From a bacterium (lineage in GTDB: Bacteria; UBA9089; CG2-30-40-21; SBAY01): a stretch of DNA of 5,591 bases. The DNA is taken from contig JBFLYA010000244.1 of assembly GCA_040757115.1 (NCBI GenBank), forward strand, positions 1 to 5,591, in the 5' to 3' direction. The translations under genes were made by a program, and so were the position numbers. A model generated the notes under the pieces. That model had not been told where the DNA came from and ran no database searches. It saw nothing but the letters and a program-made list of their open reading frames with translations. This document shows, one piece after another, positions 1 through 5,408 of the stretch (the stretch's first letter is position 1; the number at the start of each line of letters is the position of its first letter).

Positions 1-81
1 TTCAAGCAGTCCTGGTCCAAGTTCCTTATGCACCGCAACCGCAACATCAACTATGATTTTCCCGATTTCATTTTCATTCAT
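1..81 (-). CDS. GxxExxY family protein, N-terminal fragment (cut by window edge)
   Basis: Only the first 27 codons are present; the gene continues beyond the left edge. The translation begins MNENEIGKIIVDVAVAVHKE and ends LGPGLLE. The 'VHKELGPGLLE' stretch (residues 17-27) is the hallmark N-terminus of GxxExxY proteins, a small (about 125-130 aa) family related to PD-(D/E)XK nucleases whose role is not established. The ATG at 81-79 is preferred because an AAGGA ribosome-binding-like sequence sits 7 nt upstream, and because family members usually start with a similar short acidic lead. The ribosome binding site lies inside a CACAGAG/GGACACAAAG repeat, the same repeat type that flanks 2446-2658. 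The product is recognised with confidence; its function is not known. Confidence 0.85.
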   Translation of the reverse strand, partial: MNENEIGKIIVDVAVAVHKELGPGLLE

Positions 82-113
82 CTTTGTGTCCTTTGCGTCT
101 CTGTGTGATTATT
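82..113 (-). repeat. CACAGAG-type repeat in the leader of the GxxExxY gene
   Basis: On the minus strand this reads CACAGAG, then ACGCAAAGG, then ACACAAAG, directly before the ATG. It is the same word family as the inverted arms at 2446-2476 and 2629-2658, and it supplies the AAGGA that acts as the likely ribosome binding site. It looks like one end of a repeat unit whose other end would lie beyond the window. Confidence 0.6.
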
Positions 114-132
114 TTTATTAGTCTAACCTTAG

Positions 133-174
133 ATTATACTGCCTATCGGCAGTTTTTATTTTACTGCATTATAA
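133..174. repeat. 42-bp structured repeat, copy 1
   Basis: This is 42 bp long and matches 268-309 at 39 of 42 positions. It begins ATTATACTGCC and ends ACTGCATTATAA, so the ends are imperfect inverted repeats. Inside, ACTGCC (138-143) pairs perfectly with GGCAGT (148-153) around a TATC loop. The same GGCAGT arm can instead pair with the ACTGC near the right end, so two hairpins exclude each other. On the plus strand the first hairpin is followed by TTTTTATTTT, terminator-like, but no plus-strand gene precedes it. The copy lies inside the predicted leader of the GxxExxY transcript. Confidence 0.7.
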
Positions 175-188
175 GTTAGGCTAGTTAT

Positions 189-217
189 AGAGTAGCATAA
201 ATAGAATATTCTGTCAA
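189..217 (-). promoter_or_regulatory. Candidate sigma70 promoter for the GxxExxY gene
   Basis: On the minus strand a perfect TTGACA (217-212) is followed by a 17-bp spacer and TACTCT (194-189), with a TG one base upstream of the -10 (extended -10 form). Transcription would start near 182 and give a leader of about 100 nt that carries the 42-bp repeat copy 1. The same TTGACA/N17/TGc layout is seen upstream of resB in this window, which supports it. No experimental support. Confidence 0.5.
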
Positions 218-267
218 GAAAAATTTTAATATCAAAATTAGAAAATACTGAAAAATAACATCATGGT

Positions 268-309
268 ATTATACTGCCTATTAGCGGTTTTTATTTTACT
301 GCATTATAA
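268..309. repeat. 42-bp structured repeat, copy 2
   Basis: Second copy of the 133-174 repeat in the same orientation, starting 135 bp further on. The three differences all fall in the loop and central arm (AGCGGT instead of GGCAGT). As plus-strand RNA, GCGGU still pairs with both flanking ACUGC arms through one G-U wobble. As minus-strand RNA the same changes give an A-C mismatch. Confidence 0.7.
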
Positions 310-431
310 ATTTTTTCGACCTGTGCAGGTTAGCTTTAAGATTATTATTCTTCCCTTACCTTAAAAATGTCCGAAGGGGAATAAGGAGATAAGGAAGGAT
401 TATAAATTCCCTGGATAATTGGGCAAAAGGT
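310..431. other. Non-coding stretch, no gene seen
   Basis: No reading frame of useful length occurs here on either strand. Small palindromes are visible: ACCTGTGCAGGT at 319-330, and a loose CTTCC/CTTA-rich against TAAG/GGAAG pairing around 349-398. Neither can be tied to a known regulator. Confidence 0.5.
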
Positions 432-2406: not shown

Positions 2407-2445
2407 TAAATCCGCTCCATTTACAAATTAAATTCACCGATTAAT

Positions 2446-2658
2446 AGCCACAGAGTCACAGAGAACACAGAGGGAATATATAACCACGAATGAACACAAA
2501 TACAAAGAGATTTGGAGTGCGAGGCTGTAACCTCACTTCTGGCAAGCCAAAAGGCGAACCTAAAGGTTCGCACTACATTTATGGGATGTCAGAGGTTAAT
2601 TCGTGTGCATTTCTGGCTAATTTCCTTAATTCTCTGTGAACTCTGTGCCTCTGTGGCT
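2446..2658. repeat. CACAGAG inverted-repeat element enclosing a REPIN-like unit
   Basis: The arms are AGCCACAGAG-T-CACAGAG-AA-CACAGAG on the left (2446-2472) and its inverted counterpart on the right (2632-2658), with 24 of 27 positions complementary. Inside the arms are CCACGAAT/ACACAAAT-like words on the left (from 2483) and their loose inverse on the right (2594-2612). In the middle lies the GGAGTGCG hairpin pair. No target duplication flanks it. A short plus-strand frame crosses it but looks like repeat sequence read as protein. Confidence 0.7.
2514..2574. repeat. REPIN-like hairpin pair, copy A
   Basis: It starts GGAGTGCG (2514-2521) and ends CGCACT (2569-2574), as inverted termini. Two hairpins lie between: GAGG-CTGTAA-CCTC (2521-2534) and the perfect seven-base stem GCGAACC-TAAA-GGTTCGC (2554-2571). 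It shares end sequence, length and two-hairpin plan with 5231-5290. This layout is that of two REP sequences in inverted orientation. Confidence 0.65.
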
Positions 2659-2677
2659 GAACGCTTACCAGTTTCTT

Positions 2678-5336: not shown

Positions 5337-5369
5337 GGCAATGAAAATGGGAGAAGGACAACCCCCTAA

Positions 5370-5387
5370 CCCCCTTTATTAAGGGGG
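5370..5387. repeat. C5/G5 hairpin repeat
   Basis: CCCCCTT-TATT-AAGGGGG is a perfect seven-base stem, preceded by another CCCCCTAA unit (5362-5369). It has no T-run on either side, so it is not a convincing terminator. The form is that of a short dispersed intergenic repeat. Confidence 0.55.
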
Positions 5388-5408
5388 AATTGCTGAGAGT
5401 TTCTTTCT

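Follow-up and report, generated by a model that had tools for sequence, protein, structure and literature searches.

Most GxxExxY genes are bracketed by inverted arrays of short repeated units; the units differ among genes, and arrays of the same kind also occur in copies that enclose no gene. We suggest, as a tentative reading to which we give a little under an even chance, that these arrays and genes belong to a class of mobile DNA not described before, found in both bacteria and archaea. Here a very small nuclease resembling Cas4 would recognise the arrays at either end of its own gene and would also multiply, in trans, arrays that lack the gene; the specificity for units would have diversified together with the protein, and the IVP four-helix-bundle genes would be a parallel class of like layout.

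Inverted arrays around GxxExxY genes

The first-pass annotation of the window (the whole stretch of 5,591 nucleotides analysed here) had proposed that GxxExxY genes travel as cargo between CACAGAG ends. We surveyed 80 GxxExxY loci from a wide range of phyla, including archaeal ones, and scored arms by local alignment of the upstream flank with the reverse-complemented downstream flank (score of at least 14). Inverted arms were found at 53 of 78 GxxExxY genes, compared with 7 of 581 other ORFs of the same loci and 11.6% of cross-locus flank pairings; of the seven control ORFs with arms, L111 and L079 are themselves GxxExxY genes, and L114 and L153 resemble PF05635-type genes. A larger set gave arms at 99 of 177 non-own GxxExxY genes, compared with 4.5% for cross-locus arm pairing. 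In the two surveys, between one third and just under one half of GxxExxY genes fall below the arm cut-off. Bracketing by inverted short-unit arrays is thus borne out for most genes, but CACAGAG is one unit among many, and we rejected it as the defining end because array units differ among GxxExxY genes. In the genome that contains the window (G000) there are 65 matches to PF13366, many of them fragments; full-length copies generally have three to four short units before the start codon and the reverse complement just 3' of the stop codon, and the unit varies with the gene subfamily (CGCAGAG, CGCAAAGGA, GGGGATAA, GGAGAAGAT, ACACGAATT and ACGCAGATGA). The cultured Rhodopila globiformis has 11 matches. 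The gene at L268 is of the CACAGAG type and that at L226 of the CACGAAG type. Among plasmids, 8 of 72,556 records have a GxxExxY match, the DNA of locus L149 had no match when compared with plasmids, and the phage records searched contained no GxxExxY match.

Units match between the two arms of one gene, differ between genes, and track the protein. Indeed, array similarity rises with protein similarity across different genomes (Mantel r = 0.28; the highest of 300 permutations gave 0.15), although movement of a linked gene and array together could yield part of this covariation. Six full-length genes from G000 score 124-162 bits against the family profile (TIGR04256 / PDDEXK_3 PF13366; cut-off 35), and the catalytic-type residues D, ExK and QxxxY are conserved in the family. 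A structural model of the protein (pLDDT 91.6) has Cas4 SSO0001 as its best structural match (Z 9.1, 5.0 Å over 104 residues), with weaker matches to restriction enzymes and Hjc resolvases; among solved structures we found no sequence relative. The predicted fold is PD-(D/E)XK, of the Cas4/RecB type, and the best reading of the protein is as a predicted Cas4-like nuclease.

Gene-less arrays are far more numerous than GxxExxY genes. CACAGAG and CACGAAG pairs reach up to 373 per genome in a set of 40 genomes, with reversed-pattern controls mostly at zero. Thirty-two inverted pairs found without reference to any gene comprised 18 hairpins, 10 gene-less pairs (60-250 nt between the arms), 4 pairs with a GxxExxY gene and none with another gene; on this count, CACAGAG-type arms do not bracket unrelated genes. 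Unit counts are higher where the resident GxxExxY gene has the matching unit (p = 0.04 and 0.005). In the phylum of the window, genomes without PF13366 have 0-2 pairs, whereas 12 of 13 genomes with PF13366 have 7-493 (p = 0.001, ignoring relatedness). Gene-bearing and gene-less elements share identical arms within one genome. Two beta-proteobacteria have gene-less elements with 45-bp arms made up of AACCGCTTTCAA and four CACAGAG units at a spacing of 9-8-9; among 31 beta-proteobacterial elements with AACCGCTTTCAA ends, no target duplication was enriched at any of the sizes tested (2-9), and none of the 31 has IS66 GTAA ends.

The window gene and the gene-less elements beside it

The window takes up the left end of contig C244 of G000. 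Window base 1 is the first base of this contig and lies inside a GxxExxY gene, so that any arm 3' of the stop codon of this gene would fall beyond the contig. The features of the window are as follows:

1-81, minus strand: 5' part of a GxxExxY / PDDEXK_3 gene, 27 codons, truncated by the contig end (ORF and profile match)
82-105, minus strand: upstream inverted-array arm, with CACAGAG (105-99), CGCAAAG (97-91) and CACAAAG (88-82), seen in the sequence; both arms are present in a homologue (L194, genome G007)
121-127, minus strand: GTTAGAC, an integron-type core site at which the copies of the adjoining dispersed repeat all diverge; attC-like sites come after it in L457, L193 and L040
121-330, minus strand: dispersed repeat (platform) with promoter-like TTGACA (217-212), a gap of 17 nt and TACTCT (194-189), facing the GxxExxY gene
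2444-2668, no strand: gene-less CACAGAG element, multicopy in G000 and G005, with arms at 2446-2472 and 2632-2658, a right IS66-type end (TGAACGCTTAC) at 2658-2668 and a decayed left IS66-type end
617-804, no strand: gene-less element of like architecture, multicopy, with outer ends TAGTGTCGTGTTGA.../...TCAACACGACAATA and inner inverted GGTAATT-type arms at 667-696 and 737-766

The gene starts with an ATG at 81-79 on the minus strand (MNENEIGKIIVDVAVAVHKELGPGLLE). Its match to TIGR04256 in a profile search is weak (E = 0.0027, 18 bits, cut-off 35) because only 27 codons lie within the contig. Read on the minus strand, the leader array is CACAGAG A CGCAAAG GA CACAAAG, the kind of array that also makes up the arms at 2446-2472 and 2632-2658. 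The first-pass annotation had placed a CACAGAG repeat with an AAGGA site directly before this gene; the array is there, as is AAGGA (at 93-89, inside the array, 7 nt 5' of the ATG), but the units are mixed and only one of the three is an exact CACAGAG. The upstream array doubles as the leader and in some genes supplies the ribosome binding site; a general role as Shine-Dalgarno source is not supported, since a Shine-Dalgarno-like motif lies within the aligned arm in 16 of 94 genes. The homologue in G007 is 85% identical to window positions 1-108, with an array arm on one side (TCACACAGAGCCACTAAGACACAAAG) and on the other (CTTTGTGTCTTTGTGTCTTTGTGTGAG).

CACAGAG occurs seven times in the whole window, compared with 0.39 expected (a count reached in 0 of 200 shuffles), and six of the seven copies fall within the 213-bp element at 2446-2658, the arms of which are 89% complementary over 27 nt. 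It had been suggested that gene-less elements such as this one are cargo-free versions of the cassette. Gene-less arrays are indeed abundant, but the 213-bp element is not such a version: we rejected it as a cargo-free copy of the window gene because its interior consists of other, nested arrays, and it is a relative of the cassette of the window gene rather than that cassette minus its cargo. True deletion forms are elements of 212 bp and 292 bp with gene remnants.

The CACAGAG elements of about 240 bp (window 2444-2668; L061-L070) are nested, with IS66-type ends, CACAGAG arms, CACGAATGAA-type arms and a GTAGTGCGA stem, and some copies hold further inserted elements. The element at 617-804, with its TAGTGTCGTGTTGA outer ends, has copies that sit within GxxExxY genes in L036 and L462. 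A short sequence at 5358-5391 (CAACCCCCTAACCCCCTTTATTAAGGGGGAATT) recurs many times, almost unchanged, in the majority of the relatives searched.

Carriers and empty sites

Cassettes in G000 appear also to have been taken over by other carriers, namely IS66-type ends with 8-bp duplications and integron cassettes. Among 64 candidates with outer ends of the GTAACCGTTCA type (GTAAC..GTTAC), the 8-bp duplication is perfect in 17 and matches at 7 or more of 8 positions in 18, compared with 0.9 expected. A decayed IS66 transposase lies between such ends in the same genome, which, together with the duplications, makes IS66 in trans the likely mover of these copies; many G000 copies were probably moved in this way. 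Other G000 copies have TTCGACCTGTG-type outer ends, for which we found no source.

The window copy appears to sit at an integron-type site and to be carried by an integron cassette: all copies of the platform part ways at GTTA(GAC), where integron cassettes cross over, and the site in the window has the GTTRRRY core. A script placed attC-like sites behind L457, L193 and L040; the window contig ends within the gene. The same script found no attC at L097 or L033, and L097 looks attC-like by eye. At L457, two attC-like sites stand in tandem, each behind a gene-less array. At 3390-3600 in L097 (Sumerlaeota), a shortened GxxExxY cassette comes after a full one, and the sequence between the two looks attC-like by eye. 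Integron-like platforms occur in many copies (window 121-330; L457-L460, L040, L193), with different sequences after GTTAGAC.

Comparison of orthologous loci revealed empty sites at trpE-trpG and at L015. A GxxExxY element of about 475 bp separates trpE from trpG in two beta-proteobacteria (G025 and G068), and in several relatives the two genes are 9-31 bp apart; the relatives without GxxExxY have no array whatever between trpE and trpG. At L015 in G000, a 511-bp element lies between two copies of GATAGGTG, and the site is empty, with a single copy, in the sister genome G005 (an 8-bp target duplication). The L002 site has a 459-bp form in G000 and a 292-bp internal-deletion form in G005. G005 also has a gene-less array at the position of the window gene; we set aside the idea that this reflects loss of the window gene in place, since both sit at a core of the integron type and could be separate cassettes.

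A candidate mechanism and its alternatives

The explanation that we favour is that GxxExxY genes would belong to very small mobile cassettes that form one family and measure about 450-600 bp. Each would have a gene for a protein of about 125 residues with a predicted Cas4-like PD-(D/E)XK fold, set between inverted arrays of 7-mers like CACAGAG at a spacing of 8-9 nt, or of 8-11-mers. The putative nuclease would recognise the units of its own arrays, and would act in trans on gene-less arrays too, by cutting followed by copying or repair, in the way that RAYT transposases act on REP elements. The bracketing, the diversity of units, their match between arms and with the protein, the gene-less arrays and the presence or absence of elements at orthologous sites are all observations. 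We see an about even chance that, as the best reading of these, the nuclease recognises the arrays and either spreads or maintains them, like RAYT with REP; movement of the gene by the arrays themselves is something we infer. Against this explanation, the cleanest insertions, those with 8-bp duplications in G000, have IS66 ends. The GxxExxY genes below the arm cut-off, the covariation that linkage could produce and the like architecture of PF05635 genes also count against it.

REPIN-RAYT systems combine few gene copies with many gene-less palindromic intergenic repeats (PMC3116915, PMC3733652). GxxExxY is alike in having few copies of a small gene, many matching gene-less intergenic palindromes and matching repeats on either side of the gene, and the beta-proteobacterial elements share the lack of a target duplication. 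RAYT, however, belongs to the Y1 HUH transposases (IS200/IS605 type), and GxxExxY, with its predicted PD-(D/E)XK fold, is RAYT-like in layout without being a RAYT; its arms are multi-unit arrays, in contrast to the single REP hairpins of REPIN-RAYT. Arrays of CACAGAG, CACGAAG, CGCAGAT and CACGGAT are intergenic in many environmental genomes, and our search of the open literature found no account of them; one paper mentions GxxExxY only as the neighbour of a reverse transcriptase. If the arrays could be tied to a single family of small nucleases, the repeats and the scattered occurrence of multi-copy GxxExxY genes would both be accounted for, and the pairing of unit and protein would offer a very small nuclease in many natural specificities.

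An alternative, unlikely in our view, is that GxxExxY genes and their arrays are passengers of IS66-type MITEs, other terminal repeats and integron cassettes. The arrays would then be terminal repeats that have decayed or been captured, and the nuclease would have an unrelated job. This would account for the many G000 copies that combine GTAAC..GTTAC ends with 8-bp duplications, 17 of them perfect: their outermost ends (GTAACCGTTCAGG) and duplications are those of the resident decayed IS66 element, the transposase of which lies between the same ends, as in IS66-family MITEs. It would likewise account for the window copy, which lies directly behind the GTTAGAC core common to the platform copies, with attC-like sites in related copies, as in integron cassettes. 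Elsewhere among the genomes examined, however, the inner arrays bracket GxxExxY without IS66-type ends, and the beta-proteobacterial elements have no target duplication. Moreover, arrays track the protein across genomes; the carriers vary, whereas the array-gene-array core is constant. Unlike integron cassettes, most of the GxxExxY loci seen have no evident attC. Identical arms on gene-bearing and gene-less elements of one genome, insertions without duplication, and the match between arms and protein could also be produced by homing, whereby a GxxExxY endonuclease cuts gene-less palindromic arrays of other origin and the gene is copied into the loop during repair. We regard homing as distinctly improbable, since it leaves unexplained both the multiplication of gene-less arrays and the tracking of GxxExxY by their number, and since the trpE-trpG relatives lack any array.

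A role for the arms in RNA, as an mRNA stem that pairs the 5' leader with the 3' end for regulation or RNA processing, would be in keeping with how closely they hug the ORF (medians of 16 nt upstream and 9 nt downstream) and with the same layout at unrelated IVP genes. We consider this very unlikely. In 15 elements, units agree between the arms (p = 0.0025) but spacers do not (p = 0.99), leaving the spacer bases unpaired and suggesting that the units are protein sites rather than parts of a selected perfect stem; nor would a gene-regulatory stem explain the numerous gene-less copies. The comparison behind the RNA reading is with the 23S rRNA intervening sequence that encodes the S23/IVP protein, a scattered 428-nt element with a small ORF and terminal inverted repeats that is thought to be horizontally transferred (PMC4990558). 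GxxExxY elements resemble it in combining a small ORF with terminal inverted repeats, but the GxxExxY protein is unrelated, the ends are arrays of repeated units and the location is intergenic. PF05635 genes (23S_rRNA_IVP, four-helix bundle) outside rRNA nonetheless have the same array layout, with other units than those of GxxExxY and an unrelated protein, and GxxExxY therefore cannot account in general for arrays of this kind. G000 has 26 PF05635 matches, and among the loci surveyed (L427-L456; for example, L436, L432 and L454) inverted arms were found at 16 of 30 genes, compared with 0.8% of mismatched flanks.
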